64,000 nucleotides of DNA from Burkholderia cenocepacia (GTDB taxonomy: Bacteria; Pseudomonadota; Gammaproteobacteria; Burkholderiales; Burkholderiaceae): the NCBI RefSeq assembly GCF_014211915.1, contig NZ_CP060039.1:1922001-1986000 (forward strand). The letters run 5' to 3'. The first letter of the stretch is position 1. Each line of letters begins with the position of its first letter. The position numbers and the translations under genes were made by a program. Below, one piece after another: positions 10,540 to 44,001 of this stretch. Below the pieces are notes generated by a model. The model had not been told where the DNA came from and ran no database searches. It saw only the letters and a program-made list of their open reading frames with translations.

Positions 10540-10554
10540 CGGCGGAGCAATCCG

Positions 10555-11403
10555 ATGAATATGGCAGAAAGCCACCTGAATCCCGTCGAGCGCACCGCTG
10601 CGCCCGCCGGCACGCAAGACGCGGCGCACGGCCGTCCGCTCGCGCCGCTGAACGCGAAGATCGAGGTCAACAACCTCAACTTCTTCTACAACAAGTTCCA
10701 CGCGCTGAAGAACATCAACCTGCGCATTCCCGAAGGGAAGGTGACGGCGTTCATCGGCCCGTCGGGCTGCGGCAAGTCGACGCTGCTGCGCACGTTCAAC
10801 AAGATGTTCGCGCTCTATCCGGAGCAGCGCGCCGAAGGCGAAATCCTGATGGACGGCGAGAACCTGCTGACGACGAAGCGCGACATCTCGCTGCTGCGCG
10901 CGCGGATCGGCATGGTGTTCCAGAAGCCGACCCCGTTCCCGATGTCGATCTACGACAACATCGCGTTCGGCGTGAAGATGTTCGAAAAGCTCACGCGTTC
11001 GGAAATGGACGACCGCGTCGAGTGGGCGCTCACGAAGGCCGCGCTGTGGAACGAAGTGAAGGACAAGCTGGGCCAGAGCGGCTATGGGCTGTCGGGCGGC
11101 CAGCAGCAGCGTCTGTGCATCGCGCGCGGCATCGCGATCCGTCCGGAAGTGCTGCTGCTCGACGAGCCGTGCTCGGCGCTCGACCCGATCTCGACGGGCC
11201 GCATCGAAGAGCTGATCGCGGAGCTGAAGAGCGACTACACGGTCGTGATCGTCACGCACAACATGCAGCAGGCCGCACGCTGCTCGGATTACACGGCCTA
11301 CATGTACCTGGGCGAGCTGATCGAGTTCGGCGAGACCGAAAAGATCTTCATCAAGCCGGTGCGCAAGGAAACGGAAGACTACATCACCGGCCGCTTCGGC
11401 TGA
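10555..11403 (+). CDS. pstB: phosphate ABC transporter ATP-binding protein PstB
   Basis: The 282-residue ATPase of the Pst importer. Walker [12 protein letters not shown], the Q-loop [13 protein letters not shown], the signature [14 protein letters not shown], Walker [14 protein letters not shown] and the switch histidine IVTHN are all present. An N-terminal extension of about 30 residues before [10 protein letters not shown] is normal for Burkholderia. It lies 15 bp after pstA and 18 bp before phoU. Confidence 0.97.
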
Positions 11404-11421
11404 TGACGGAGAACAACAACC

Positions 11422-12126
11422 ATGTCGGATAAACATCTGTCGAGCCAGTTCGACGCGGACCTGAATGCCGTGTCGTCGAAAGTGCTGGAAATGGGCGGAC
11501 TCGTGGAGTCGCAGATCGTCGGCGCGATGCGCGCGCTGAACGAATTCGATCGCGATACGGCCGAGAAGGTGATCGCGGCCGAGGAAACGCTGAACGCGAT
11601 GGAAGTGGACATCGACCAGGAATGCGGCAACATCATCGCGCGGAGACAGCCTGCCGCACGTGACCTGCGTCTTTTGATGTCGATTTCGAAAACGATTACG
11701 AACCTCGAGCGCGCCGGCGACGAGGCAGAGAAGATCGCCAAGCGCGTGCGCCGCCTGGTCGACGAGCCGGCCGCGCGTGCGGTCAACATCGCCGAGATCA
11801 AGGTGTCGGGCGAGATGGCCGTGACGATCCTGCGCCGCGCGCTCGACGCGTTCGCGCGCCTCGATACGGTGGCCGCCGCGCAGATCGTCAAGGACGACAA
11901 GGAAATCGACATGGAATTTCGCGCGTTCGTGCGCAAGCTCGTGTCGTACATGCAGGAAGATCCGCGCACGATCTCGGTCGGCCTCGACTACCTGTTCATC
12001 GCGAAGGCGATCGAACGGATCGGCGACCACGCGAAGAACATCGCCGAATTCATCATCTACATCGTGAAGGGCACCGACGTGCGGCACCAGCCGCGCGACA
12101 CGCTCGATCGCGAAGCCAACAGTTAA
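11422..12126 (+). CDS. phoU: phosphate signalling regulator PhoU
   Basis: A 234-residue, all-helical cytoplasmic protein that links Pst transporter state to PhoR and keeps the Pho regulon off when phosphate is plentiful. Two repeats of the PhoU fold are seen, with metal-ligand motifs EKVIAAEETLNAME and RAGDEAEKIAK in the first half and IERIGDHAKNIAEFIIY in the second. It is placed between pstB and phoB. Confidence 0.97.
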   Translation: MSDKHLSSQFDADLNAVSSKVLEMGGLVESQIVGAMRALNEFDRDTAEKVIAAEETLNAMEVDIDQECGNIIARRQPAARDLRLLMSISKTITNLERAGDEAEKIAKRVRRLVDEPAARAVNIAEIKVSGEMAVTILRRALDAFARLDTVAAAQIVKDDKEIDMEFRAFVRKLVSYMQEDPRTISVGLDYLFIAKAIERIGDHAKNIAEFIIYIVKGTDVRHQPRDTLDREANS

Positions 12127-12155
12127 TCGACTCCATAGGAAGAACAGAGGTGCCG

Positions 12156-28470: not shown

Positions 28471-30288
28471 TCACTCCACCGTCACCGATTTCGCGAGATT
28501 CCTCGGCTTGTCGATATCCGCGCCGCGCAAGCACGCCGCGTGATACGCGAGCAACTGCAACGGCACGACGTGCAGAATCGGCGACAGCAACCCGTAATAA
28601 TCCGGCATCCGCAATACCGACACGCCTTCGCCGTTGTCGATCCGCGTATCGGCATCCGCGAACACGTAAAGCTGCCCGCCGCGCGCCCGCACCTCCTGCA
28701 TGTTCGACTTGAGCTTTTCGAGCAGCGCATCGTTCGGCGCGATCGTCGCAACGGGCATCGTGTGCGTGACGAGCGCGAGCGGCCCGTGTTTGAGCTCGCC
28801 CGCCGGGTACGCTTCCGCGTGGATATACGAAATCTCCTTCAGCTTCAACGCGCCTTCGAGCGCGATCGGGTAGTGCAGCCCGCGCCCGAGAAACAGCGCG
28901 TTTTCATGCTGCGAGAATTCCGCCGCCCAGCGCGCGATCTGCGACTCCAGCCCCAGCACGTCTTCGAGCGCGCCGGGCAGGCGCCGCAACTGCGTCGTAT
29001 AGCGCGCGAGTTGCGCATCGTCGACGTAGCCGCGCAGTCGCCCGAGCGTCACCGCGAGAATGAACAGCGCGACGAGCTGCGTCGTGAACGCCTTGGTCGA
29101 CGCGACGCCGATTTCCGGGCCGGCCCGCGTCAGGAAGCGCAGTCCGGTCTGGCGCATCATCGCGCTGGTCGGCACATTGCAGATCGCCAGCGTGTCGATG
29201 TGGCCGAGCGCCTGCGCGTACTTGAGGGCGGCGAGCGTGTCTGCGGTCTCGCCGGATTGCGACACGCTGACCACCAGCGTATTCGGCGTCGCGAGCGCGT
29301 CGCTGTAACGGTATTCGCTCGCAATCTCGACCTGCGCGGGGATGCGTGCGATCGTCTCGAGCCAGCGGCGTGCGGTCAGGCCGGAGTAGTGGCTCGTGCC
29401 GCACGCGAGGATCAGCACGTTGTCGATCTGCTCGAACGCGCGCGCGGCGTCCGGGCCGAATACGGCGGGATCGAACAGCCCGGCATCGGGGATCGTCGCG
29501 GCCACGGCCTGCGGCTGCTCGAAAATTTCCTTCTGCATGAAGTGCCGGTAGGGGCCGAGCTCGACCACGCCCTGCGCGGACGAAATGGTTTGTATCGCGC
29601 GTTCGATCGGCGCGCCGGTGCGATCGAGTACCCGCACGCCGCCCGGCGTCAGCTCGACGATGTCGCCTTCCTCGAGAAAGATGAAGCGGTCGGTGATGCC
29701 GGCGAGCGCGAGCGCGTCGGACGCGAGAAAGCATTCGCCGTCCTTCACGCCGACGACGAGCGGCGAGCCGGCCCGTGCGCCGATCAGCCGCTGCGGCTCG
29801 TGCTTGCTGAACACCGCGATCGCGTAGGCGCCGTGCAGTTGCGAGGTCGCATCGCGCACGGCGGCGAGCAGGTCGCCTCGATACTTGCTGTGGATCAGAT
29901 GCGCGACCACCTCGGTGTCGGTCTGTCCGTCGAATTCGTAGTGCTCGTCGGACAGTTGCTTGCGCAACGTTTCATGGTTCTCGATGATGCCGTTGTGCAC
30001 CAGCGCGATTTCGTCGCGCGAGAAGATCGGATGCGCGTTGCACGTCGCGGGCGCGCCGTGGGTTGCCCAGCGCGTGTGCGCGATGCCGGTGTTGCCGGCG
30101 AGGCCGGCGCTGCGCACGTGGGCGTCGAGATCGGCGACGCGCGACATGCTGCGCTCGCGGCGTGCCTGGCCGTCGACGACGGTCGCCACTCCGCATGAAT
30201 CGTAGCCGCGATATTCGAGGCGGCGCAAACCTTCGATCAGAATCGGGACGATATCCCGTTGCGCGACCGCGCCGACGATGCCACACAT
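28471..30288 (-). CDS. glmS: glutamine-fructose-6-phosphate aminotransferase GlmS
   Basis: Makes glucosamine-6-phosphate from fructose-6-phosphate and glutamine, the entry to UDP-GlcNAc. It has 605 residues. The N-terminal glutaminase starts MCGIVGAV with the catalytic Cys2, and TRWATHG is seen. Two SIS domains follow ([39 protein letters not shown]), and the end is the diagnostic KSVTVE. It is the last gene of the minus-strand run from the polysaccharide locus, 49 bp after the preceding gene. A housekeeping or a locus-dedicated copy cannot be told apart here. Confidence 0.96.
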
Positions 30289-30337
30289 GACACGTCTCCT
30301 TCCCAGTAGATTTCCCCGGACCGTGCGCACGCGTGGA

Positions 30338-31426
30338 TCAGCGTGACGCGGTCTCCGTTGTCGCCGCCGTCGTGAAGCCGCATCGAGCGGGTGCGACCGG
30401 GTCGGCCATCCGGCTTTCGAATGCCAGGTAAAGCGCCTCCTCCAGTACGTTCCAGTGCGCGCCGTGCCGGTACGGGCCCGATCGTGCATGCCAGCACGCG
30501 ACCGTGTTCATGTCGTTCATCTTGAATGCGACCAGTGCGATCAAGCCCCACGGATAATCGGAGCTGGCGAGTTGCAGCCAGGTCTTGCCGTACTTCTGCA
30601 TCCACTGCGCATAGATCGTCTCGTTCGATTGCTGGGGAACCTGAATGCCGGAAAGAAGCGGAAAGACCTGCGCGACTTTCGCCGGATAGAACGTCGTGTC
30701 GCTGATGCGCTGCGTGCTCGCGCGAAAGCCGGACTGCGTGCCGCGCCAGAACACCTTCAGGATCGCGGACGCGAGCCGGTCGGCGCGCTGGCTCCACGGG
30801 CCGGCGCGCGTGGCGTCGCCATGCCGCACGTAATACGCGGCGAGCGCCTGGAACGCGCTGTGGACCTCGACGTTGTCCATCAGCAGCGCGACATGCAGCG
30901 TCGACGAGATCTGATAGACGCCCGCGGGCTTGCCGAGCAGCGCGTCCAGGTGCGCGGCCGCGCGATCGAGGCTGAGTTCCCATGCGGCGGGCAGACCCTC
31001 GGGCGGTGCGAAGCGCGCGAGCAGCTCGATCCAGGTCGCCATCATCGCATCGTCGGCGTCGGCTTCGGCGCATGAGCTGTACTGGCCGCTCTTCACGCAG
31101 TAGCGATCGAACCCGCCGTCCGGGCGCTGGCGCGGCAGCAGCCACGCGATCCAGGCGAGCGCGGCCTGATGGGCGTCGAGCCCGGCGTCGGCGGCGCCGA
31201 GCAGCGCCTTCGCCGCGAAATAAGGATCGATGCCGGCGCCGTTCAGGCGCACGGTGATCGCGCCGTCGGGGCGTTGGTAGAGTCCGTTGAGCTGGAGTTC
31301 GGCGGCACTCGCCTGCAGCGCGACGCCGCACGCGGCGACACAGCAGGCGACGCACCAGAGGCGGCATAGCCGGGCGGTGGCCGCCACGCGTGCGCGTGCG
31401 GCCGGGAAAAGCGCGGGCCGGTTCAT
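30338..31426 (-). CDS. secreted alpha/alpha-toroid, glycosidase-like protein
   Basis: A 362-residue protein with an N-terminal signal (long basic start, then [17 protein letters not shown]). The mature part is helical with repeated hairpins and resembles six-hairpin glycosidases: [29 protein letters not shown] (about 121-136) with clustered acidic residues like GH8-type catalytic sites, [17 protein letters not shown] and [16 protein letters not shown]. It may trim or release the polymer made by this locus. The family assignment is by pattern only. Confidence 0.6.
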
Positions 31427-31518
31427 GATGGGGGGCTCCTGCGCGATGGTCCTGCGCAAATCCCGCCGCGCGCGGCGTTGGCCGCGCCGCGCGCCGGCGG
31501 GTGGGTCGATGTCGCGGC

Positions 31519-33657
31519 TCAGTGCACCTTGGCGCTGGTGAACTTGAGACTGGTGCCGCTGTTCGCGGTCACGAGCCAGTACGTCGAGTCGGTGATGACG
31601 ACGCTGCCGAAGCCTTGCGTGATGATCGGCAGCGCGAAGCCCTTCTTCGGCAGGAGCCACGTCATGTTCGCGAGGCTGGTCGGATGGCTGGCGGCGAACG
31701 TCCAGCCGCTGCCCGTGTCGGTGGCCGACCACGTGACGTTCAGGCGTGCACGATCGAAGGTCGTGATGTCACTCATCGTGTACCACTTGAACTGACCCGT
31801 CAGTTTCAGCGTATTGGCTTGCGAGAAGATCGCGGACAACGTCGACGTGTAGGACGACGCGCCCAGCGGATGCGCGTAGATCAGCCGGCTCGTGCGGTTC
31901 GCGACGACGAAGTTCATCAGGGATGCGTACCAGTTGTTCACGTCGGCCGTCGGCACCGCGTATTGCTGGAACTCCTCGAACGTCGCGTACTTGCCGAACG
32001 GCATCACGGGGTACGCCCACAGGCCGGGGTTCAGCAGCGCGCCGTTGCGGTATGCGCGGGTCGGTGCCGAGCCGGTGTGGCCGGTGAAGTAGTAGCCGTT
32101 GAAGCCGTTGCTTTCGAGCCAGTTGACCGACCACGTCGGCGTGTTGCCTTCCGGCGCCGCGTACTCGACGTCCGGCTGGCCGGTCGCGGCCTGGACGGCC
32201 TGATGGTTCATCACCAGGTACTGCGTAAACGTGCTCGCGTTGGTTTCGCTCGCATTCGCCCCCCAGTAGTCGTGAATCCAGCCGCCGTGGCTGCCGACGC
32301 GATGGCCCTTGCTCACGAAATACTTGAGGAGATTCTGCGCGGACGGGTTGTTGGCGAGATTGATGCCGCCACCGTCGCCGAAGGCCGCTTCATCGGGGCC
32401 GGCCGTGACCACGAGCGAGAACGGCCCGTTGTTCCACACGCCGAGGCTCTTCAGGTAGAGCGCCGGCTGGATCTGGTCGCCCGCGCAGAAGTGCCAGTTG
32501 AACACGAGCCCGGCCATCGCCTTCGGCAGCGGCGACAGCGACGGCAGGTTCAGCATCTGCGTGCCGAAATAATGCAGGTAGCCGTGGATCAGCATGCCGT
32601 CGGTCTGGCCGTCGAGGTAGGCGAGCGGCAGGTTGACGAACAGCACGCCGCCGTTGCCGTACGTGTTGTAGCCGGACACCAGCCCGAAGGTCGGCGAGGT
32701 CAGGATCGTCGTGCCGGTGTACGTCCCCTGCGTAACGAAGCTCGGATAGGTGAGGAAGCCGTACACGTAGCCGGAGATGCCTTCGAGCGTGTCGCTGGTG
32801 GTGGCCAGCGTCGACGCGAGCGTGTTGGCCGTCTTGCCGGTCGACGTGCTCAGGAGCGAATTGGCGGTATACGTCGTGGTCTTCTTCAGCTTGCCGGTCA
32901 CGGTGCCGGTCAGCTTCGGCGTCGTCTGGTTCAGCACGCCGCTGCCCGTGGGCGGCGTCGTGTACTTGAACCATGCGTCGTGGTTGTAATTGGCGAGGCC
33001 GCCCGGGTTCGACGGGCTGGCGGCCAGGAACTGCGCGCTGCCCGACGACGTGTTCGTCGACGTGCCCGAGGTGCTCGTCGAGGCGAGCGCGGTCGCGGTC
33101 GTGGTGCTCGACGAAGCCGTGGTCCATGCCATCGACTTGCCGGGAGGCACCTGGAGCGTGCGCAGCCAGCTGCTCATGCCGGTCACGTTGCCGAGGCCGA
33201 TCATGTTGCCGCCGTATTGGTCATACAGCACATAGTCCACACCGACCATGCTGCTGAAGCGCGATTTCGGGCTGACGTAGAAGCCGGCGGAATTCAGCAC
33301 GCCGAAATCGTAGACGAGCATCACCTTGCCGCCGTTCAACGCGTAGTTCTGGATCGCCGTCACGAGTGTGTCGCTGGCCGTCGTGTGCACCTGGTCGGGC
33401 AGAATCAGGCCCGGATACTGCGACAGCGATGCGCCGGCCGCCATGAACTGGCTGTCGGTCATCACCTTGATCTGCAGCCCTTCTTCCTGCGCACTGTCGA
33501 GCCATGCGGACACGCGCGAATCGGGCAGCGTCAGCGTATCGGGCACCAGCAGGAGGAGCTGGTTGGTGGCCGCCTGAACGCCGCCCGGACTGAATGCGAA
33601 CGCGAGCGCGAACAGCGCGAACAGAATCCGCAAGAACTTGCCTGACTTTGCCAACAT
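31519..33657 (-). CDS. secreted polysaccharide-deacetylase-like multidomain protein
   Basis: A 712-residue exported protein (signal about 1-29). Residues 30-175 look like a Rossmann or amidotransferase-like domain (LLLLVPDTLTL, KVMLVYDFGVLNSAGF). A Ser/Thr-rich linker (about 179-207) and a Thr/Lys-rich stretch (247-290) follow. Residues about 383-630 resemble a NodB/PelA-type deacetylase barrel with altered motifs: FNWHFCAGD, GSHGGWIHDYW, AAPEGNTP and YAHPLG. The last 80 residues look like a beta domain. It probably deacetylates the polymer in the periplasm. Domain calls are by pattern. Confidence 0.6.
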   Translation of the reverse strand: MLAKSGKFLRILFALFALAFAFSPGGVQAATNQLLLLVPDTLTLPDSRVSAWLDSAQEEGLQIKVMTDSQFMAAGASLSQYPGLILPDQVHTTASDTLVTAIQNYALNGGKVMLVYDFGVLNSAGFYVSPKSRFSSMVGVDYVLYDQYGGNMIGLGNVTGMSSWLRTLQVPPGKSMAWTTASSSTTTATALASTSTSGTSTNTSSGSAQFLAASPSNPGGLANYNHDAWFKYTTPPTGSGVLNQTTPKLTGTVTGKLKKTTTYTANSLLSTSTGKTANTLASTLATTSDTLEGISGYVYGFLTYPSFVTQGTYTGTTILTSPTFGLVSGYNTYGNGGVLFVNLPLAYLDGQTDGMLIHGYLHYFGTQMLNLPSLSPLPKAMAGLVFNWHFCAGDQIQPALYLKSLGVWNNGPFSLVVTAGPDEAAFGDGGGINLANNPSAQNLLKYFVSKGHRVGSHGGWIHDYWGANASETNASTFTQYLVMNHQAVQAATGQPDVEYAAPEGNTPTWSVNWLESNGFNGYYFTGHTGSAPTRAYRNGALLNPGLWAYPVMPFGKYATFEEFQQYAVPTADVNNWYASLMNFVVANRTSRLIYAHPLGASSYTSTLSAIFSQANTLKLTGQFKWYTMSDITTFDRARLNVTWSATDTGSGWTFAASHPTSLANMTWLLPKKGFALPIITQGFGSVVITDSTYWLVTANSGTSLKFTSAKVH

Positions 33658-33991
33658 GGTGTGCTCCTCGCTCAAGGAATGGGGGCGTGCGGCAGCCGGA
33701 ATGCGCGTGCCGCCAGGTCGACCAATCCAGCCCCGTAGGTGTGTGCGGCTGTCCGGTTCGTCGGGTATCGAGCGGTGCATGTCGACGGCGGACGGATTGC
33801 GCCAGGGCGCCGGGGCGCCGCGCTGCCTTCGCCGATGAGAGGACTCGATGCGACGTATTGAAAGAAGCGAACAACGTGCCATTGACGCAGGAGGCCCGGT
33901 CCTGCTGGCTTCCTGCGATGCGGGCCGGGCGGCAGGGCCGGAAACGCGGCGGATTCGTTTCATCGCTGATACGGCGCGTTTGAACGCGCTA
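33658..33991. other. 334-bp gap inside the polysaccharide operon
   Basis: It lies between the membrane-protein gene and the deacetylase-like gene, both on the minus strand. A frame stays open across part of it but shows arginine-rich, non-coding character. I see no RNA gene or clear terminator. It may hold an internal promoter, which would split the locus into two transcripts. Confidence 0.5.
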
Positions 33992-34762
33992 TCAGCAGAC
34001 GGAATCGCGATCGCGCGTCAGTGCGCCGGGCCAGCTTGCGCAGTAGGTATAGAGCGTGACCAGCAGGCCGATCAGCAGTGGCCCGCCGAGCAGGAAATAG
34101 CAGAACGGCAGGAACAGCAGCGAACCGTGATGGATGATCGTCGCGTGCAGCAGCATCACGAACGGCAGCGCGAACACGAAGTAGCCGAGCACCAGCAGCG
34201 ACGCGACGGCTTTTTGCAGCAGCGAGAAATCGAGCGGGTAGTACAGCGCGGCCATCACCAGCGGGATCACTGCGATCGCCGCGCCGTACAGCACGAACAT
34301 GTCGCGCAGGTGCAATTGCGGGACATACGGAAACGTGCCGGGCGCGAGCCAGAAGTACGCGCAGATCAGCAGCTGGGTGAAGCTCGCGATACGTAACAGA
34401 TATGCAACAGGCAACCAGTTCGCCCGCCGGATGAAAGATGCGGCGAAGCCGGTCGCGCAGAGCGCGGTGGTGGCGGCCAGCAGCATGCCGCCCGGCATGC
34501 GGGCCGCGACATCGATCGACAGCAGCGGCACGCGCGGGGCGTCGGGCGGGTAACCGATCACGATCACGTGAAGCGCCGGATCGAGCTGGTGCGCGCCCCA
34601 CGCCATGACCGAGCGCCAGTAGCGCCACGCCAGCGGCAAGCCGAACCACAGCGACGCGTACAGCGCGGGCGTCAGCAGCGCGATCGACGAAAGCCAGCGC
34701 TGCGGGTACGCGTGGGTGCGCAGCGAACGATCGACGGGAGGACGGACGGGATGCGTGTGCAT
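33992..34762 (-). CDS. polytopic membrane protein of the polysaccharide locus
   Basis: A 256-residue protein with about six membrane segments after a short cytoplasmic N-terminus (MHTHPVRPPVDRS). Hydrophobic stretches include ALLTPALYASLWFGL, LLAATTALCATGFAASF, YLLRIASFTQLLICAYFW, FVLYGAAIAVIPLVMAALYY, ASLLVLGYFVFALPFVMLLH and FCYFLLGGPLLIGLLVTLY. No enzyme motif is recognised. It starts 13 bp after the YaiO-like gene ends and is probably part of the polymer export or assembly machinery. Confidence 0.7.
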   Translation of the reverse strand: MHTHPVRPPVDRSLRTHAYPQRWLSSIALLTPALYASLWFGLPLAWRYWRSVMAWGAHQLDPALHVIVIGYPPDAPRVPLLSIDVAARMPGGMLLAATTALCATGFAASFIRRANWLPVAYLLRIASFTQLLICAYFWLAPGTFPYVPQLHLRDMFVLYGAAIAVIPLVMAALYYPLDFSLLQKAVASLLVLGYFVFALPFVMLLHATIIHHGSLLFLPFCYFLLGGPLLIGLLVTLYTYCASWPGALTRDRDSVC

Positions 34763-34775
34763 GGCGCCCGCCCGG

Positions 34776-35789
34776 TTACCAGCGATAGAAGACGCTGAGC
34801 TCGCCACCGATTCGTGAGTAGTAAGGGTTGTGGTAATAGTCGAATTCGAGCTGCGTTCCCCACTTGCGCGTGAACCAGTAGCGCCATTTCGCGGTGATCT
34901 CGTGGCTGCGGAAATCCGCGATCTGCGTGCCGGACCCGGTGACCTGATACGCCTCGCGGCCAACGCCGCCGCGCAGCACGATCACGCTCTTGCCGACTTC
35001 GCCGTAGGTGACGGCGCCGTAGTACGCCGGCGCCTTCACCGATCCGGGTGAATCGATCGTATAGTTCGCGCCCGCCTCGAAAATCCACTTCGGCAATGCA
35101 TACCAGATCACGCCGGCGTGATACAGCTGATCGCGGTGGCCGCTGCGGTTCCATGCGTAGCCGGCGCCGAGCGACACGACCAGCGAACGATCGGACAATA
35201 GCTTGCGGTTGATCGACACGTCGACGCGCGCACTCGGCAGGATCGTGCCCGATGTGGTGCCGGAAAAGCCGATCCCGCTGAACCAGTCGGGGCCGAGGTC
35301 CTGCACGTAGGTCAGCGCGCCGAGCTGCGTGTTCTCGCCGAAGCGGTGCAGTTGCGCCAATTCGCCTAGCACGGTGCGGCCGCCATCCTGGTAGACGCCG
35401 CGCAGATGCACGCCGTACCAGTCGCCGTAGCCGTGCGTCAGGTGTGCGTTCGAATAGCCGAGCGTCAATTCGGTGTGCGATTCCTGCGGCGCCTGCACAT
35501 GCGTGACGACTGCATCGGGCAGCGGCGGGCGGTTCGTATCCTCGGGCGTGAACTCGGCGAGCGGCACGCCGTCCGGCAGGCCTTCGGCGTCCACGCGCAC
35601 GAACATCGACTCGTCGCGCATCCGTGGCGTGATGACGGTCGCGGGGGCCGGAGGCTGCACGGCCGGCGTGGCGGCGGCATCGTCAGGCTGCTCCGCCAGC
35701 GCCGCGGGCGCGCCGAAGGCGACGCCGCACAGCATCGCGAGGGTGGCAACCGGCACGCGCGGGCCGCGATGGCTGGGGCGATCGGACAT
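34776..35789 (-). CDS. YaiO-family outer-membrane beta-barrel protein
   Basis: A 337-residue protein: a signal peptide (to about AALA-EQ), a Pro/Ala-rich spacer of roughly 80 residues, then a barrel with alternating strands from ELTLGYSNAHLTHGYGDWYG to the terminal FYRW, an aromatic C-terminal residue as outer-membrane proteins require. The barrel pattern (YSNAHLTHGYGDWY, YAWNRSGHRDQLY, HEITAKWRYWFTRKWG) fits YaiO proteins. In E. coli yaiO lies beside a GT2 gene and a hexapeptide gene, as here. A role as the outer-membrane pore for a secreted polymer is likely. Confidence 0.78.
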   Translation of the reverse strand: MSDRPSHRGPRVPVATLAMLCGVAFGAPAALAEQPDDAAATPAVQPPAPATVITPRMRDESMFVRVDAEGLPDGVPLAEFTPEDTNRPPLPDAVVTHVQAPQESHTELTLGYSNAHLTHGYGDWYGVHLRGVYQDGGRTVLGELAQLHRFGENTQLGALTYVQDLGPDWFSGIGFSGTTSGTILPSARVDVSINRKLLSDRSLVVSLGAGYAWNRSGHRDQLYHAGVIWYALPKWIFEAGANYTIDSPGSVKAPAYYGAVTYGEVGKSVIVLRGGVGREAYQVTGSGTQIADFRSHEITAKWRYWFTRKWGTQLEFDYYHNPYYSRIGGELSVFYRW

Positions 35790-35799
35790 GAGGCGCTCC

Positions 35800-36795
35800 T
35801 TAACGGGATGTGTGGAACCAGCCGCTGCGCCACGCCACGAGATCGCCATGCACGCAGGCATGATTGACGATCGAGACGTCGCGCGCGCACGCGCTGACCG
35901 GATGGCCGGCGACGCCGATGCGCGCCCCAGTCAGTCGCAGCAGGCCGCCGGCCGACACGACGCCGTCGATGCAGCTCGCGTGGGCGAGCAACACGTCGTC
36001 GCGCGCGAATACCGCACCGTGCAGCAACGCATGACGTTCGAGTTCGACGCGATGCGCCTTGACGCTGCCGCGCAGCACGCAGCCTTCACCGAGGACGAGC
36101 GCGCCTTCGACGATCAGGTTGCCCTGCACGACCGTGTGTGCGGGCAGGCGAACGTCGCACGGCAGCAGGTAACGGCCGTGCAGGAAGCGATGCGGCAGCG
36201 ACGCGAAGTGGCGGGTGAGCGAGATCGCGCGGCGCGGGGCGGCCAGTGTGTCAGCGGGTCGCGGGCCGGGCGCCGCGCCGAAGACGAGCGGCTCGCCATA
36301 CAGGCACGCGAAGCCGCCGGCGCCGCGCAGGCGCACGGTGTCGCCGACCACGACGCCGCGCAGCACCGCGTCGTCGACGTCGATCAGCGGCGCATGCGCG
36401 AGCGTGCCGATCGTCGCGCCGGCATGGATGTCGATGTGCTCGTCGGCGAACGCGTACGCGGCCTGCGCGCCTTCGTCGAGCGTGATCGTGCGATCGGCGT
36501 AGAGCACGTCGTCGCGATGCGCGTCACGTGCGACGTGGATCGCGTCCGCGTGCTGCACGGCCAGTCCGAGCGTTTGCCACGGCGGCACGGCCGACGCATC
36601 CGCCGGCGGCGTGCCGGCCACGTGGGCACGCAGCGCGTCGTGCCAGCGCGCGGCGAGCAGCGCCTGATCGACGAACGGCCCGTCGCCGATCGGGAGTGCC
36701 GCGACGTCGCTGCGCCGGATCAGTTCATGCAGCATCGGCACGAACGGCAGGGCGAGTACGCTGGCCACCGGCACCATCACATTGAAGGTCGTCAT
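35800..36795 (-). CDS. beta-helix/hexapeptide-like (bactofilin-like) membrane-associated protein
   Basis: A 331-residue protein. It starts with a hydrophobic segment (MTTFNVMVPVASVLALPFVP). From about residue 110 on it has short repeated turns with I/L/V every six or so residues (HAPLIDVDDAVLRGVVVGDT, VQGNLIVEGALVLGEGCVLR, CIDGVVSAGGLLRLTGARIG), the look of a left-handed or bactofilin-like beta helix. It is not a clear acetyltransferase. The gene begins 3 bp after the GT2 gene ends, so translation is probably coupled; it may scaffold the synthase. Confidence 0.65.
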   Translation of the reverse strand: MTTFNVMVPVASVLALPFVPMLHELIRRSDVAALPIGDGPFVDQALLAARWHDALRAHVAGTPPADASAVPPWQTLGLAVQHADAIHVARDAHRDDVLYADRTITLDEGAQAAYAFADEHIDIHAGATIGTLAHAPLIDVDDAVLRGVVVGDTVRLRGAGGFACLYGEPLVFGAAPGPRPADTLAAPRRAISLTRHFASLPHRFLHGRYLLPCDVRLPAHTVVQGNLIVEGALVLGEGCVLRGSVKAHRVELERHALLHGAVFARDDVLLAHASCIDGVVSAGGLLRLTGARIGVAGHPVSACARDVSIVNHACVHGDLVAWRSGWFHTSR

Positions 36796-36798
36796 CGC

Positions 36799-38370
36799 TT
36801 ATCGCTCCGGTTTCAACTGCCGGCGAAAACGCTCGGTCTTGTCCCATTTCAGTTCGCGGCGAAACGCGGCGTCGAGCGCGAGCCCCCAGAGCGCGGAGAC
36901 GACCGCCGCGATCGTCACGCAAAAGCCGACGACGTTGACCGGCACGAGCCGCAGGCGCGTCGCGCGGCCGTCGAGCCGCGCGGCGACGACGATCTCGAAG
37001 AACACGCCGAAGTTGCCGAAGGTGCTGAACGAGAACAGTGCGAACAGCGACAGGAGCAGGCCGAGCGCGGTCGAGTTGACGCCGTTGAACAGGTAGAGCG
37101 CGAGCGCGGCGCTCCACGCGATCGCGAGCAGCGCCGGCATCGCGAATACGCCGAGCAGCAGTGCGCCGTCGAGCCGGCAGCGCCGCGAGATCAGCGGATT
37201 GCGCAGCACCGGCACCAGATAGCGCAGCATCGTCTGGTTGTGGCCCTTCGCCCAGCGGGTCAGTTGCCGGGCGCGGACGGCCCAGCGCTCCGGCACTTCC
37301 TCATAACATTCGGCGTGGTTCAGATAGACCGTGCGCCAGTCGCTCAGCAGCAGGCGGTAGGTCATGTCGGTATCTTCGGCGAGCGTGTCGTCGCACCAGC
37401 CGCCCACGGCGTCGAGCGCACCCTTGCGGATGCCGCCGACCGTGCCGCCGTACTGCGGCACCAGGTCGAGATTGTTGCGGGCTTGCTGGTTGACCTGATA
37501 GCCGCCCGCGCGCTCGAGATCGAGCAGCCGCGCGAGCAGGTTGCTGTCGGCGTTCTGCGGCACGACACGGCCCATCACCGCGCCGACTTCCGGGTCGAAG
37601 AACGGCGCGACGAGTTCCTTCAGCAGCCCCGGTCGAGGCAGGTAGTCGGCGTCGAATACCACCATGATGTCGCCGCGGATGAACCGCAGCGCATCCTTCA
37701 GCGCGGCTGCCTTGCCCGGCTTGCCGGTTTCGCGGTGAAACGGCTGGATCAGCTCGGGCGCGAGTGCCCGGACCTCGTCGATCAACGCGCGCGTGTTGTC
37801 GGTCGAGCGGTCGTTGACCGGGATGATCGTGAGCCGGTCGCGCGGGTAGGTCGTGGCCAGCAGCGCCATCAGGCAATCGACGATGACCGTTTCCTCGTTG
37901 TGGGCGGCGACGAATACCGTGAGCCGCGGCCAATCGCCGTGGGTCATCGTCCGGTAAGGCGCGTGCTGCGGCTTGAACAGGCGATCGAGGCTGAATACGT
38001 AATGCCGCGCGGCATACGCGCACGTCAGCAGCGTGAACAGCCACAGGTACGCCACGCACGGCATCAGCAGCAGCTCGGGATCGAACGTGATGCCCGCCGT
38101 GGTGGCGGGCGGCGGTTCGAGCGACGCGTCCGTGTCGGTCGCGGCCTGTGCGGCGAGCGAAAGCGTCACGCTGTCGAGCGCGGTGCGCTCCATCGCGATC
38201 GCGAGGTTCGCGGCGTTCGCGGCAGTCGTGATGTTGGCGGCGGGCACGCTGAAGCGGGCCGGTTCGGCGATCGCCCGCGATCCGGTGTCGCGCACGATCA
38301 GCGAGCAGGCCAGCACGATCAGCAGCAGGATGCCTTGCTCGCAGAGTGACGCCGCCCGCGTTTTCGTCAT
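36799..38370 (-). CDS. processive GT2 glycosyltransferase (polysaccharide synthase, BcsA/YaiP-like)
   Basis: A 523-residue inner-membrane enzyme. One N-terminal helix (about 13-28), a periplasmic loop and a second helix (101-120) precede the catalytic domain. That domain has VNDRSTDNT (about 185-193), the metal-binding DAD (240-242), the acceptor-site AEDTD (331-335) and QLTRW (369-373), the Q-x-x-R-W motif of processive synthases. Several membrane helices follow (400-500). It should polymerise a UDP-sugar and push the chain across the membrane. No PilZ domain is present. It is the first gene of the operon. Confidence 0.88.
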   Translation of the reverse strand: MTKTRAASLCEQGILLLIVLACSLIVRDTGSRAIAEPARFSVPAANITTAANAANLAIAMERTALDSVTLSLAAQAATDTDASLEPPPATTAGITFDPELLLMPCVAYLWLFTLLTCAYAARHYVFSLDRLFKPQHAPYRTMTHGDWPRLTVFVAAHNEETVIVDCLMALLATTYPRDRLTIIPVNDRSTDNTRALIDEVRALAPELIQPFHRETGKPGKAAALKDALRFIRGDIMVVFDADYLPRPGLLKELVAPFFDPEVGAVMGRVVPQNADSNLLARLLDLERAGGYQVNQQARNNLDLVPQYGGTVGGIRKGALDAVGGWCDDTLAEDTDMTYRLLLSDWRTVYLNHAECYEEVPERWAVRARQLTRWAKGHNQTMLRYLVPVLRNPLISRRCRLDGALLLGVFAMPALLAIAWSAALALYLFNGVNSTALGLLLSLFALFSFSTFGNFGVFFEIVVAARLDGRATRLRLVPVNVVGFCVTIAAVVSALWGLALDAAFRRELKWDKTERFRRQLKPER

Positions 38371-39548
38371 GTCCTGGTCCCCGTGCCCGCGACGACGACC
38401 GATGAGAGCTGAAGGCGCTCCGTGGATCGCGCGGATGTCAATGGAAGGCGGTGACGCGTTCGTCGCACAGGGGCGGTTGTCGGTTGCCCCGGACGGACGC
38501 GTCGCCTCCCGGCTTCGTTGCTTTGGCGTCCCCATCTGTTTGCTGCCGTGCGAGTGCTTCGGGACGCGCCTGTCTGACATTAAGCAAGGCGTGCGCCATC
38601 TGCCGGTATGCCCCGCGCGACAAGGGGGCGAGCGCCGCAGGCGAATGCGCGACGCGCGCGGACGGCGTGTTTTGATTCACTGACGAATCAGCGTGCGCGC
38701 GCCGCATTCGACTCCGCAGGGGCGATCGCACGCATTCGAACATGTCGCGCGGCGACCGGGGCGGTCCAACTTGTCGTGCCGCATTGTCGGCGCAGCCTGG
38801 CATGGCTGACCGTCGTGTGTCGTGCGTCGTGTGCGAGACGGTCCGGCGCGCTGAACGAACGCTGCTTTCACATGAGACAAATGGACCGGACTCCGATGTA
38901 TTTGCCGGTTTGGGCGTGGCGTTACACATTCGCAACATTTCCCGCGCACGGATTCGTGTGAGGCAAGCACCGTCGTGTGCGTGGGAAATCCGGTGCGCGC
39001 GAGGGTGGACGACGGTCGCGTGCGCGCTGCACGCTGCACAGACGAAAGCGTCGAATCGAGACGACGCAACGCGCGTCGAAAGATGCATGCGATTCGCCGC
39101 GTCACGCGCGCTCGACATGCATGCACGATTCATCGGACGACGTCGTCAGACGGATCGCGCGCACGTCCGGCTGTTTATCGTTGTCGTGTCGATCCGGCGA
39201 TGCGTGTGCCCGTAGCAGTTGTGAAACATTCCGCGACGCGCTGTTCGCACGCGATGGTCGCGGAACGAAGCGGGCCGGGAGGCGGGCCGGTTGGTTTGAA
39301 TATTGCTGTAGTGGGAGGACCTGATGCTCGACGCAGCGAGGAACGGCTCATGACGTGATCGATCCAGTACGACGGGACGCCGGTAGTACGACGATTCGCG
39401 CGGCTTCGACCGTGCGAACGAGGTGGCGCGCTCGCCCCGCGACACCGCCGCGTGTTGATCGCGTGCGAGTACGGGATGCGCCGCCCGAATACATGCTTCG
39501 CGCCACGTGCCGGATCGCCAGGCGCGAAGTGGCTAAACGAGGATAACG
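38371..39548. other. 1.18-kb divergent intergenic region, polysaccharide locus
   Basis: Between the GT2 gene and wecB there are 1,178 bp without a convincing gene. Codon use of the open frames is poor, and the base composition is patchier than in neighbours, with AT-richer blocks near 38860-38960 and 39280-39340. I see no tRNA, no strong terminator and no clear sigma-54 site. It is long enough for complex regulation or an undetected RNA. Confidence 0.6.
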
Positions 39549-40766
39549 ATGAAGAAGATCTTGCTTGTGTTCGGGACTCGGCCGGAGGCCATCAAGATGG
39601 CGCCGCTGGTGCGCGCGCTGAAGGCGCAGGCGGATGTCGACGCCCGGGTGTGCGTGACCGCGCAGCATCGCGAAATGCTCGACCAGGTGCTGACGCTGTT
39701 CGACATCAAGCCCGACTACGATCTCAACCTGATGCGGCAAGGCCAGACGCTGACCGACGTGACGACCGGCATCCTCCAGGCGATCGGCATGGTCTTCGAC
39801 GAATTGCGACCGGACATCGTGCTGGTGCACGGCGATACGACGACCACGCTCGCGGTGAGCCTGGCGGCGTTCTATCGCTATCTGCCGGTCGGTCACGTGG
39901 AAGCCGGCTTGCGCAGCGGCGACATCTGGTCGCCGTGGCCGGAGGAACTGAATCGCCGCGTGACCGATGCGGTGTCGTCATGGCATTTCGCCCCAACCGG
40001 GCAGGCGCGCGACAACCTGCTGAGCGAAGGCGTGCCGGGCGGGGCGGTCTCGCTGACCGGCAATACCGTGATCGATGCGTTGCACGAGGTCAAGCGCATG
40101 CTGGATCGCACCGCCGCGCTGTCGGACAGGATCGCCGCCTACTTCCCGTTCCTCGAACCGTCGCGGCGCGTCGTGCTGATCACCGGCCATCGCCGTGAAA
40201 GTTTCGGCGAACCGTTCCGGCATTTCTGCGACGCGCTGTGCACACTGGCGAGCCGCTATCGCGATGCGCAGTTCGTCTATCCGCTGCACCTGAACCCGAA
40301 CGTGCGGGAGCCGGCACGCGCACGGCTCGGCGGCGTCCCCAACATCTACCTGATCGAGCCGCAGGAATATCTGTCGTTCGTATTCCTGATGTCGCGCGCG
40401 TATTTCATCATCACGGATTCGGGCGGCATTCAGGAAGAAGGGCCGGCGCTCGGCAAGCCGGTGCTTGTCACGCGCGAGACGACCGAGCGGCCCGAAGCGA
40501 TTCAGGCCGGCACCGCGCGGCTCGTCGGCACCGACCGGGAGCGGATCGTGTGGGAGGCGTCGCGGCTGTTCGACAGCGAGAGCGCTTACGAGGAAATGTC
40601 GCGCGCGAGCAATCCGTACGGCGACGGCCATGCGAGCGAGCGGATCGTTCACGCGCTGATGCGCACGCCCGGCGTGCCGACGAAGACGACGAGTTTTGCG
40701 ATGGGCGCCGCGGAAATGCCGTTCAACGCGCTCACGCTCGGCTTGCAGGCGTTGCGCTCGCCGTGA
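39549..40766 (+). CDS. wecB: UDP-N-acetylglucosamine 2-epimerase (non-hydrolysing)
   Basis: Interconverts UDP-GlcNAc and UDP-ManNAc. It has 405 residues, starting [20 protein letters not shown]. Seen are [31 protein letters not shown] and [29 protein letters not shown], which supply catalytic and UDP-binding residues. GAGGATAACG precedes ATG 39549. It is divergent from the GT2 operon and is the only sugar-nucleotide enzyme beside it besides glmS, pointing to a GlcNAc/ManNAc-type polymer. Confidence 0.94.
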
Positions 40767-41219: not shown

Positions 41220-41681
41220 ATGATCACGCTGACCGTCAACGGTAGCGAGCAGCACTTCGACGGCAATCCCGACATGCCGTTGCTCTGGTATCTGCGCGAT
41301 GTGCTCGGCCACACCGGCACCAAGTTCGGCTGCGGGATGGCGCTGTGCGGTGCATGCACCGTGCATCTCGATGGCGTGGCGATCCGCGCGTGCATCACGC
41401 CCGTCGCGGTCGCCGCCGGCAAGCGCGTGACGACGATCGAAGGCTTGTCGACGGAGCTCACGCACCCGCTGCAGCAGGCGTGGCAGGAGCTGAACGTCGC
41501 GCAATGCGGCTACTGCCAGTCCGGGCAGATCATGCAGGCCGCGTCGCTGCTGAAGACGAATCCCCATCCGACCGACGCCGACATCGACGATGCGATGTCC
41601 GGCAACATCTGCCGCTGCGGCACCTATACGCGCATTCGCGCGGCGATCCGGCTGGCCGTGCGCCGCGGAGGTGCCGCATGA
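41220..41681 (+). CDS. iorA: isoquinoline 1-oxidoreductase alpha subunit-like (2Fe-2S)
   Basis: A 153-residue small subunit of a molybdenum hydroxylase. The plant-type [2Fe-2S] cluster motif is [16 protein letters not shown], and the second cluster ligands are [11 protein letters not shown] and [13 protein letters not shown]. It passes electrons from the Mo centre of IorB. A strong AGGAGGTGA precedes ATG 41220. It overlaps iorB by 4 bp (ATGA). There is no FAD subunit gene, as is normal for the Ior type. Confidence 0.92.
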
Positions 41682-44001
41682 GCGCGTCCGAACTCTCCGT
41701 GCACAACGCAAGCCGTCGCGCGCTGCTGCTGGGCTTCGCATCGGGCGGGCTGTTGCTCGCGTTCGGCGTGCCGTCGCTCGCGCAGGCGGCCGCGCCGGTG
41801 CAGCCGCCCGTCAGCGCGAATCCGCAGTACGGCGGCGCAGGGATGCCGCACGGCTTGCGCGACGATCCGAACCTGTTCGTGGCGATCGCCCCGGACGGCA
41901 CCGTCACGGTGACCTGCATCCGCTCCGAGATGGGGCAAGGCGTGCGCACGAGTGTGGCGCTCGTGGTAGCCGACGAGCTCGGCGCGGACTGGGCACGCGT
42001 GAAGGTCGCGCAAGCGGTAGGCGACGAGCCGCGCTACGGCAACCAGAACACCGATGGTTCGCGCAGCCTGCGCCAGAGCTTCGCCGCGCTGCGCCGAGCG
42101 GGCGCGGCCGCGCGCACGATGCTCGAGCAAGCCGCGGCAGCGACGTGGGGCGTCGACGTGCGCCAGGTGAAGGCGACGGTGCACGAGGTCGTGGACACGA
42201 AAACCGGCCGCAAGCTCGGCTTCGGCGAACTGGCCGCGAAAGCCGCCGCGCTGCCGGTGCCCGATACGAAAAGCGTGGCGTTGAAGGCGCCGGCCGAATT
42301 CCGCTATATCGGCAAGGGCAAGACGGCGCTGATCGACGGACGCGACATCGTCGGCGGGCGGGCGCAGTACGGGATCGATACGCGGCTCGACGGCATGCTG
42401 TACGCGGTCGTCGCGCGCCCGCCGGTCTACGGCGATACGGTGGCGTCGTTCGATGCATCGGCTGCCGGGAAGCTGCCGGGCGTCGTGAAGGTCGTGCAAC
42501 TGGCGTCGACGCCGCTGCCTTCCGGCTTCCAGCCGCTCGGCGGCGTAGCCGTGATTGCGCACGATACGTGGACGGCCATCCAGGCACGCGCGCAGTTGAA
42601 GATCGACTGGAAGCACGGACCCAACGCGGGCTACGACTCGGCCGAATATCGCAAGGCGCTCGAAGCGGCTGCCGCGCAGCCGGGCGACGTGATCCGCAAC
42701 GACGGCGACGCGGCGGCGGCACTCGCCGGTGCCGCGAAACGCGTGCGCGCGACGTACTACATTCCGCATCTCGCGCACGCGACGATGGAGCCGCCCGCGG
42801 CCGTCGCGCGGGTGGCCGACGGCCGCTGCGAAGTATGGACCTGCACGCAGGCGCCGCAGACCACGCGCGACGAAATCGCGAAGGCGCTCGGCTTGCCGAC
42901 GGAGCGCGTGACGGTCAACGTGACGCTGCTCGGCGGCGGGTTCGGCCGCAAGTCCAAGCCCGATTACGTGGTGGAGGCCGCGCTGCTGTCGAAGGCGGTC
43001 GGCGCGCCCGTGAAGCTGACCTTCACGCGCGAGGACGACATCGCGCACGACTACTTTCACGCGGTGTCGCTCGAAGCGTTCGACGGCGGGATCGATGCGT
43101 CCGGGAAGGTGGTCGCGTGGCAGCATCGCACGGTCGCGCCATCGATCCAGTCGACGTTCCGGCCCGGCGTCGTGCACGAGCAGCCGGGCGAGCTCGCGCA
43201 AGGCATCGCGGATCTGCCGTTCGCGATTCCGAACGTGCGGATCGAGAATCCGGCCGCGCAAGCGCACACGCGGATCGGCTGGTTCCGCTCGGTGTACAAC
43301 ATTCCGCATGCGTTCGGCATCCAGAGTTTCGTGTCGGAGCTCGCGCATGCGGCCGGCCGTGATCCGAAGGATTTCCTGCTCGACCTGATCGGGCCCGCAC
43401 GGCGTTTCGAGCCGCACATCACGGTGAAAAACGTGAACTACGGCGAGGACCCCGCGCTGTATCCGGTCGATACGGGGCGGCTGCGGCGCGTGGTCGAGAC
43501 GGTCGCGCGCGAAGCCGGCTGGGGCGCAAGCTGCCGAAGGGGCACGGGCTCGGGATCGCCGCGCATCGCAGCTTCGTGTCGTACACGGCCGCGGTGTGTG
43601 AAGTGCAGGTCGACGCGGACGGCAAGATCTCGGTGCCGCGCGTCGACATCGCGATCGACTGCGGGCCGCAGGTCAATCCGGAGCGCGTGCGCTCGCAGCT
43701 CGAGGGGGCGGTGGTGATGGGGCTCGGCATCGCGCTGCACGGCGAGATCACGTTCAAGGACGGCCGCCCGGAGCAGAGCAACTTCAACGGCTTCCAGGTG
43801 CTGAGGATGAACGAGGCGCCGCGCGAGATCCGCGTGCATCTCGTCGCGCCGGACGATTACGCGACGCCGCTCGGCGGTGTCGGCGAACCGGGCCTGCCGC
43901 CCGTCGCGCCGGCGCTGACCAACGCGATCTTCGCGGCGACCGGCACGCGCATCCGCAGCTTGCCGGTGGCCGATCAGCTCGCGAAACCGCAGGCCGGTTG
44001 A
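41678..44001 (+). pseudogene. iorB: isoquinoline 1-oxidoreductase beta subunit-like, frameshifted
   Basis: The large molybdopterin subunit with a Tat-type N-terminus (NASRRALLLGFASGG). The first frame encodes a normal sequence to about 43525 (VVETVAREAGWG), including GQGVRTSVALVVADELG and GGGFGRKSKPDY. After that the conserved sequence continues in another frame (VSYTAAVCEVQVDADGKISV to the end QLAKPQAG). Adding one base near 43526-43528 (GGCGCAAGC to GGCGCGAAGC) restores GWGAKLPKGHGLGIAAHRSF and a 774-residue protein. As given, the Mo-binding C-terminal part is lost. Confidence 0.85.

Follow-up and report, generated by a model that had tools for sequence, protein, structure and literature searches.

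Organization of the locus

The window, that is, the whole 64,000-nucleotide stretch of Burkholderia cenocepacia DNA analyzed here, contains a run of minus-strand genes from GT2 to glmS and a divergent wecB. The genes and features of the locus are as follows.

glmS, 28471..30288, minus strand: neighbour in Burkholderia, outside the conserved unit
GH, 30338..31426, minus strand, 362 aa: secreted glycosidase-like protein, probable alpha/alpha toroid
Deac, 31519..33657, minus strand, 712 aa: secreted NodB/CE4-fold protein
Block missing in 19 genomes of the same genus, 31587..38401: GT2 to Deac, except for some 21 codons at the end of Deac
TM6, 33992..34762, minus strand, 256 aa: multi-helix membrane protein with no known family or matched fold
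YaiO, 34776..35789, minus strand, 337 aa: outer-membrane beta-barrel with a signal-peptide-like start; proposed export channel
BHelix, 35800..36795, minus strand, 331 aa: N-terminal hydrophobic helix and bactofilin-like beta-helix
GT2, 36799..38370, minus strand, 523 aa: processive polysaccharide synthase
sigma54-like -24/-12 element before GT2, 38583..38598, minus strand: conserved as GG-N10-GC
sigma54-like -24/-12 element before wecB, 39292..39307, plus strand: conserved as a 16-mer and as GG-N10-GC
wecB, 39549..40766, plus strand: non-hydrolysing UDP-GlcNAc 2-epimerase, divergent from the minus-strand run

All genes named in the initial annotation are present, and the family matches of YaiO, wecB, and GT2 were above their cut-offs. 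The intergenic gaps of the minus-strand run, from GT2 to glmS, are 3, 10, 13, 334, 92, and 49 bp, and Deac, GH, and YaiO have signal-peptide-like N-termini. The eight genes from glmS to wecB were found in identical order, with 65 to 99% identity, in 20 of 22 further genomes of the genus that have YaiO. In this comparison, L036 has no Deac or glmS next to its cluster, and L037 carries the other kind of YaiO. Because this order is kept and the dN/dS values of the six genes from GH to GT2 lie at 0.11 to 0.27, the block is not a product of chance. We thereby confirmed a real, conserved unit of seven genes, namely, GH, Deac, TM6, YaiO, BHelix, GT2, and the divergent wecB. The gene set originally proposed needed two corrections: glmS is a neighbour (13 of 62 loci, 12 in Burkholderia and one in Cupriavidus), and wecB is the seventh conserved gene.

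Distribution of the system

The initial annotation had named co-occurrence of the members in other genomes as a test, and a comparative genomic search showed that they widely occur together, in 62 loci found through Deac and eight found through TM6. In the search for relatives, the best 80 of 133 were kept. We fetched 78 loci and set aside 16 that had no GT2 of 300 bits; in 15 of these, Deac was the only gene of the system in the stretch retrieved (six such stretches measure 4.9–12.6 kb), and the other, L142, is a 4.4 kb contig carrying BHelix, YaiO, and wecB. The remaining 62 loci all have GT2, and Deac is present in every one by design, since the loci were fetched through it. BHelix occurs in 62, wecB in 60, YaiO and TM6 in 59 each, and GH in 50, being missing from 12. 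The three loci that lack both YaiO and TM6 lie on contigs of 8–11 kb, and the two without wecB are L132 (a short contig) and L143 (6.2 kb before GT2). In all 60 loci with wecB, this gene lies within 3.6 kb of GT2 (median, 589 bp); the two share a strand in 47 of these loci, all of them among the 48 from outside Burkholderia. Gene order is shuffled among the 62 loci, and the linkage extends across phyla: the system is found in many bacteria of soil and water, among them Burkholderia, Cupriavidus, Ralstonia, the sheathed Leptothrix and Sphaerotilus, and soil Acidobacteriota.

A search with TM6 in 399 genomes of the order detected eight loci in seven genomes; GT2, BHelix, YaiO, wecB, and GH were present in all eight, and Deac in six. 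As a control, 13 other YaiO loci showed no match to wecB, TM6, Deac, GH, or BHelix at E 0.01, and neither did the 10 kb stretch around E. coli yaiO. A match in G452 was below the cut-off and was left out, and BHelix-like matches apart from the rest of the system were seen in G618 and G647. Absences in the genome searches are soft, as few candidates were scored per genome (two for Deac, six for TM6, and five for BHelix).

Within Burkholderia, we examined 25 of the 42 YaiO-negative genomes, picked for having a wecB match. In 19 of the 25, the five core genes (GT2 to Deac) were absent as one block, whereas glmS, GH, and wecB were kept. In the 26 further wecB loci of the genus, all without the core, wecB adjoins glmS in every case and GH is present in 19; neither wecB nor GH is therefore exclusive to the system in this genus. 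These genomes count against a tight coupling of the unit.

The synthase

GT2 matched PF13641 with 109 bits (cut-off, 27). Hydropathy indicated hydrophobic stretches at residues 8–31 and 100–118 before the catalytic domain and 403–498 after it. The motifs DxD (240–242), ED (332–333), and QxxRW (369–373) are invariant in a 24-sequence alignment. The nearest NCBIfam model was that of PgaC (TIGR03937), for which the score of 118 bits was below the equivalog cut-off of 422, and the CelA model gave 67 bits against a cut-off of 699. Among four E. coli glycosyltransferases compared, PgaC was by far the best match with 105 bits; YaiP gave 44.7 bits and NfrB 25.8 bits (E 0.015). In a phylogenetic tree, the GT2s of the system formed a single clade (support, 100/99) apart from YaiP, PgaC, NfrB, and BcsA, the placement of these four themselves being unsure. 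Each locus has one system-type GT2, split or weak matches aside. No c-di-GMP domain, including MshEN, was detected in GT2 using Pfam. The seven proteins showed no Pfam or NCBIfam match to PilZ, BcsB, PgaA, PgaB, or PgaD.

The envelope and secreted proteins

YaiO clearly exceeded the curated cut-offs of TIGR04390 (193.4 versus 32 bits) and PF19413 (118.7 versus 23.9 bits), and no TPR was matched in it by Pfam or NCBIfam. The YaiO profile of the system misses E. coli YaiO, yet TIGR04390 includes both. BHelix scored 23.7 bits against the bactofilin family PF04519, under the cut-off of 27.9; its profile matched the bactofilin structures 6ria and 2n3d at E ~0.002, a level that ice-binding proteins also reached. 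TM6 had no match in Pfam or NCBIfam, and two distant relatives had none in Pfam. Its predicted model (pLDDT 89, pTM 0.81) matched no PDB structure at E ≤0.001.

Deac scored 21 bits against Pfam, below the cut-off. It has a NodB/CE4 fold, and its N-terminal domain resembles part of GH42 enzymes; an alignment with PelA spans the whole model with an rmsd of 7.6. His389, His457, His462, and His596 are invariant in the alignments and Asp422 is nearly so. Motif 1 of CE4 enzymes is usually FDD; it reads NWH in Deac, and catalysis by this protein is therefore uncertain. The gene is in two pieces in L029 and L072, which were taken as one genome. GH scored 18.9 bits against PF22422 (MGH1-like), under the cut-off of 27. 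In 26 sequences from the system, Asp123, Asn185, Glu187, Tyr247, and Trp293 of GH are invariant and Asp126 is nearly so, whereas Asp123 is replaced by Glu in 10 of the 19 loci of the genus that keep GH without the core.

wecB and the precursor sugar

The wecB product scored 500 bits against TIGR00236, above the equivalog cut-off of 210, and only 75 bits against the NeuC model, below its cut-off of 236. It is identical to E. coli WecB at 224 of 376 aligned positions. Five residues (Lys15, Asp95, Glu117, Glu131, and His213 in E. coli numbering) are kept in the window wecB and in all 58 cluster copies of at least 350 aa; we take the last four to be the remaining catalytic residues of E. coli WecB besides Lys15. 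Lys15 is given as a catalytic residue in the available text of PMC8669472. The wecB product is thus predicted to make UDP-ManNAc from UDP-GlcNAc. Neither the 68 system loci searched nor the window yielded a wecC homologue at E 1e-10, and the wecB-wecC pair of this genome sits on another contig. Gene linkage is the sole basis for assigning ManNAc to the polymer, because GT2 is far nearer to PgaC, whose donor is UDP-GlcNAc, than to NfrB.

Promoter-like elements

Of the 12 positions of the sigma54 pattern, the element before GT2 fits 10, and the window contains nine sites with at least 10 (6.9 expected); the element before wecB fits nine, and there are 42 sites with at least nine (41 expected). 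Since such raw matches are not significant, the elements draw their weight only from conservation. GG-N10-GC is kept before GT2 in all 22 GT2-wecB loci of the genus and in each of the 20 core-less loci that were scanned. The 16-mer before wecB is identical in 20 of the 22 loci, with GG-N10-GC in all 22, and all 20 of the scanned loci without the core also have the element. Outside Burkholderia, a match at 10 or more of the 12 positions was seen for eight of 47 clusters, compared with 1.04 expected; six of the eight are from Cupriavidus. No such element was seen upstream of the Ralstonia and Acidobacteriota clusters. Transcription is probably sigma54-dependent in Burkholderia and Cupriavidus, as judged from this conservation.

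Discussion

We consider it fairly probable that the locus is a self-contained synthase-dependent exopolysaccharide system whose polymer contains N-acetylmannosamine. The scheme below builds on the computed linkage and conservation of the genes, on the families and folds of their products, and on conserved promoter-like elements; the sugar, the order of the steps, the activity of each protein, and the topology are our proposals. WecB would convert UDP-GlcNAc to UDP-ManNAc, which GT2 would polymerise, possibly with GlcNAc, while moving the chain across the inner membrane. TM6 may help GT2, and the bactofilin-like BHelix may act as a partner bound to the membrane. The CE4/PelA-like Deac would deacetylate the chain in the periplasm, where the GH-like protein would trim it, and the chain would then exit via the YaiO barrel. 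The initial proposal of a synthase-dependent polysaccharide system that modifies its product in the periplasm and differs from pel, pga, and bcs is supported here, and the accompanying guess of a GlcNAc/ManNAc-type polymer fits the linkage of wecB.

What the chain consists of can be narrowed only tentatively. It is possible, and we put it no higher, that the product is a dedicated poly-ManNAc homopolymer, partly deacetylated, i.e., a polymannosamine and cationic relative of PNAG and Pel, made from Burkholderiales to Acidobacteriota by a system with its own synthase clade, deacetylase, hydrolase, YaiO exit, and new-fold membrane protein. A mixed ManNAc/GlcNAc polymer, in which the single GT2 would incorporate both sugars, much as hyaluronan synthase draws on two donors, would suit both the one system-type GT2 per locus and a PgaC-like catalytic domain with wecB linked; we find it doubtful, as the second donor has no direct evidence and the alternation of two sugars by one GT2 is rare. 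GlmS makes GlcN-6-P for UDP-GlcNAc, and GT2 might use UDP-GlcNAc supplied by glmS and the general pathway for a PNAG-like or chitin-like polymer, with wecB serving another pathway. The proximity to PgaC among the NCBIfam models and the E. coli enzymes points that way, as do glmS adjoining the cluster in Burkholderia and the retention of wecB and GH without the core in 19 genomes. We nevertheless regard this as unlikely given the close linkage of wecB to GT2, on the same strand in nearly all loci outside Burkholderia, the missing PgaA, PgaB, and PgaD matches, and a score under the PgaC cut-off.

Two further readings concern the fate and the ancestry of the product. A glycan that is linked to lipid or protein, or that stays in the periplasm as an envelope glycan, would be consistent with a YaiO without a TPR match, and bactofilin-like and orphan membrane proteins are unusual in export systems. 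However, the set of a QxxRW synthase, two periplasmic proteins resembling a deacetylase and a hydrolase, and an outer-membrane barrel in 59 of 62 loci follows the usual logic of export, which makes a non-secreted glycan quite improbable. The initial annotation regarded the locus as an enlarged form of the E. coli yaiO/yaiP/yaiX cluster. The order of glycosyltransferase, beta-helix protein, and YaiO is common to both; GT2 scores higher with PgaC than with YaiP (105 versus 45 bits) and falls in a separate clade, the YaiO profile misses E. coli YaiO, and the 10 kb around the latter are without accessory matches. That derivation is therefore not supported, and we hold it very improbable that the two clusters make the same product.

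Few biofilm polymers of the synthase-dependent kind are known, and a further one could explain surface material that goes unnoticed when pel, pga, bcs, and alg are sought. The proposed system also suggests export of the polymer as the likely role of YaiO family barrels, and a single enzyme with a single nucleotide sugar would suffice to test whether a GT2 can polymerise ManNAc.

Comparison with known systems

The system shares with PNAG pgaABCD the nearest synthase family and the logic of a deacetylase plus a hydrolase. Unlike in that system, two separate proteins carry the deacetylase-like and the hydrolase-like part, and wecB is linked. The Pel synthase PelF is a GT4 enzyme, whereas the synthase here is a GT2, and no other Pel component was matched among the seven proteins by Pfam or NCBIfam. 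The cellulose system (BcsA, BcsB, BcsZ, and BcsC) likewise combines a GT2 synthase, a secreted hydrolase-like protein, and an outer-membrane exit, but differs in the low score of GT2 to CelA and the lack of PilZ and BcsB matches. With E. coli yaiP-yaiX-yaiO the locus has in common the order of glycosyltransferase, beta-helix/hexapeptide protein, and YaiO family barrel, although glycosyltransferase and barrel are only distantly related and wecB, TM6, GH, and Deac are unmatched there.

No description of the seven-gene set, and no measured polymer for this system, was found in the literature searched, as judged by titles and the openings of abstracts; the search was not by meaning, and subscription journals were outside its scope. 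The following candidates were rejected as far as their available text goes. Rubrivivax psc1 is a Wzx/Wzy cluster with PEP-CTERM-type genes (PMC3684757). The main text of a Leptothrix/Sphaerotilus genome paper is without "epimerase" or "deacetylase", and its candidates for the sheath are wza, wzb, and wzc (PMC13386937). Two studies of sigma54/NtrC in B. cenocepacia have "epimerase" nowhere in the text available (PMC5491218, PMC5552954).

The system would be most comparable in its working to the NGR pathway of E. coli (NfrA, NfrB, and WecB; also an nfrA-nfrB-wecB cluster in Achromobacter xylosoxidans). According to the portions available, that pathway has an inner-membrane glycosyltransferase and an outer-membrane exporter, wecB is the sole ECA gene required, and the polymer is proposed to be ManNAc-based (PMC8669472, PMC8669469). 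The same sources used the same argument from gene linkage, and wecB is linked to the synthase gene here as well (60 of 62 and eight of eight loci). The synthase, barrel, and accessory set differ: GT2 has 523 aa, no match to a c-di-GMP domain, and 26 bits to NfrB; a YaiO barrel replaces NfrA; and TM6, BHelix, GH, and Deac are additional.

Gene content of the B. cenocepacia locus

The window lies on contig 1 of a 7.6-Mb genome, and every gene that the initial annotation had assigned to a YaiO-type polysaccharide synthesis and export locus was located in it, as follows.

36799-38370, minus: GT2 synthase
35800-36795, minus: beta-helix protein (BHelix)
34776-35789, minus: YaiO
33992-34762, minus: membrane protein (TM6)
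31519-33657, minus: deacetylase-like protein (Deac)
30338-31426, minus: glycosidase-like protein (GH)
downstream end of the minus-strand run, after GH, minus: glmS
39549-40766, divergent from the minus-strand run: wecB

The first four genes are spaced by 3, 10, and 13 bp; the five genes from GT2 to Deac are hereafter called the core. The plus-strand stretch 41220-44001 of the window carries what we take to be a 2Fe-2S-type protein and then a large-subunit-like ORF (41345-43717) that seems to continue in a different frame (43576-44001), reflecting either a broken gene or a sequence error.

Conservation and possible core loss within Burkholderia

YaiO was present in 23 of 65 same-genus genomes. 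Among the 22 besides the window's own, 20 matched the window in both content and order of the eight genes, one lacked Deac and glmS beside the cluster (L036), and one had a YaiO locus of a different kind (L037). The dN/dS values for the six genes between glmS and wecB ranged from 0.11 to 0.27 in five comparisons. In genome G016 (loci L036 and L184), the system occupies a different site without glmS, and a glmS-wecB pair, with a 67% identical wecB, is retained at the usual site.

Another 26 wecB loci from the genus were retrieved (one from G016 and the rest from 25 of the 42 YaiO-negative genomes), in addition to the second wecB locus of the window's genome. The core was missing in 19 of the 26, with glmS, GH, and wecB kept, and the other seven had glmS and wecB only. 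Similarity to the window ended at 31556-31586 and restarted at 38402-38465 in 16 of the 19 core-less loci, so that no more than about 21 codons from the end of Deac remain. This stub tentatively suggests loss of the core rather than its gain. GH had no stop codon in any of the 19 core-less matches; D123 was replaced by E in 10 of them and E187 by D in one. Since GH has an open frame and wecB is present in these loci, both seem to retain a use without the synthase, which no explanation proposed covers well. The GH open frame adjoins glmS in these loci (L161-L175, L177-L179, and L183), and in the 19 genomes it sits behind a promoter-like element that elsewhere faces GT2.

The GT2-wecB intergenic region is 1.1 to 1.3 kb long and is more conserved at both ends, beside GT2 and beside wecB. 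A GG-N10-GC element, resembling a sigma54 consensus quoted in PMC5491218, was found in each conserved end in 22/22 GT2-wecB loci and also in 20/20 core-less loci scanned, and as raw matches both Burkholderia elements are no better than chance. Similar elements lie 140 to 180 bp before wecB in six of 10 Cupriavidus loci; in the Ralstonia and Acidobacteriota clusters, no element matched at least 10 of 12 positions. These putative sigma54-like elements suggest that the core and wecB are regulated together in Burkholderia and Cupriavidus, and are not proof of sigma54 use.

Recurrence of the gene set beyond the genus

The proposal that these genes form one system predicted their co-occurrence in other genomes, and the same set does recur inside and outside Burkholderia. 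A phylum search found YaiO in 17 of 398 genomes (16 above the cut-off). Two of the 14 YaiO loci fetched outside the genus, L056 and L058, contain the same set in rearranged order, with wecB inside the cluster on the same strand. In the other 12 and in L037, YaiO is paired with a GT2, and wecB, TM6, Deac, GH, and BHelix had no match at E 0.01 in any of these 13 loci or in the E. coli yaiO stretch. A Pfam scan of three of them (L057, L061, and L062) detected a HEAT protein in each; L057 and L062 also have a response regulator, and the L057 YaiO carries TPRs. These three loci, with YaiO, a HEAT-repeat protein, and GT2, represent another YaiO kind.

Using Deac as bait against GTDB contigs, we obtained 78 loci, the best of 133 relatives; 62 of the 78 carried GT2 at 300 bits or more. 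These 62 contained BHelix (62), wecB (60), YaiO (59), TM6 (59), GH (50), and glmS (13). YaiO and TM6 were both missing from three contigs of 8 to 11 kb, GH from 10 Acidobacteriota loci (9-22 kb) and two short contigs, and wecB from L132 (short) and L143 (with 6.2 kb of sequence before GT2). GT2 and wecB lay within 3.6 kb of each other in 60/60 loci and shared a strand in 47. Among the 16 loci without GT2 at this threshold, 15 had Deac alone, some on short contigs; thus, Deac occurs outside the system too. Such relatives, with no other system member in the fetched stretch (some short), are L082-L084 (about 10001-12136), L085-L088, L092, L097, L101, L108, L110-L112, and L144, and include second copies in B. 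latens, B. cenocepacia, and Burkholderia sp. Bp9142. In the sheath-forming genera Leptothrix (sp. C29, L104) and Sphaerotilus (sp., L134), the system is present with three Deac copies.

Because the 62 loci had been found through Deac, TM6 was used as a second bait, giving eight loci in seven of 399 genomes of the order. GT2, BHelix, YaiO, wecB, and GH were present in all eight and Deac in six. At E 0.001, BHelix had matches in 73 of the 399 genomes, 10 above 100 bits and 63 below 30 bits, the latter a pattern that would be expected of a common repeat fold. The 10 strong genomes were the seven with TM6 and those of L193, L194, and L195. L193 is a short contig carrying BHelix with wecB, GH, and GT2. 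L194 (about 9424-10485) and L195 (about 9015-9908) encode a BHelix-like C-terminal domain (118-124 bits), and no other system member was found in the 19 kb fetched.

The system GT2s formed one clade (support 100/99), which includes sequences from 46 Pseudomonadota and 12 Acidobacteriota and a single Syntrophaceae sequence that was flagged as a long branch. The E. coli GTs added as references are long branches as well, which makes their exact placement unsure. The closest named relatives of the window's GT2 are from Burkholderia species.

Predicted function and the case for ManNAc

The system is real and conserved and belongs to the synthase-dependent type; it has a synthase clade of its own, its list of parts is new, and its polymer may contain ManNAc. 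We found no report of it in the open-access papers searched. The genes are linked, and we infer each individual activity as follows. WecB, a non-hydrolysing epimerase by model match and residues, would form UDP-ManNAc. GT2, which carries DxD, ED, and QxxRW, would polymerise and translocate the chain, and TM6 and BHelix might, as a guess, be its membrane partners; the distribution of charges at the BHelix anchor suggests that the beta-helix faces the cytoplasm. In the periplasm, Deac and GH may modify and trim the chain, and YaiO would be its exit.

No wecC homologue was found in the 68 system loci or the 64-kb window. Another contig of the window's genome has an adjacent wecB-wecC pair (G000:C2:2566110-2568528), whose products are 61% identical to the window's WecB and 67% identical to E. 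coli WecC, respectively. Outside Burkholderia, wecB shares the GT2 strand in 47 of 48 loci; within Burkholderia, the argument for ManNAc is weaker because glmS and wecB are neighbours even in loci that lack the core. The argument is of the same type as that made in PMC8669472 and PMC8669469 for the E. coli NGR pathway, where ManNAc was likewise argued from genetics and linkage.
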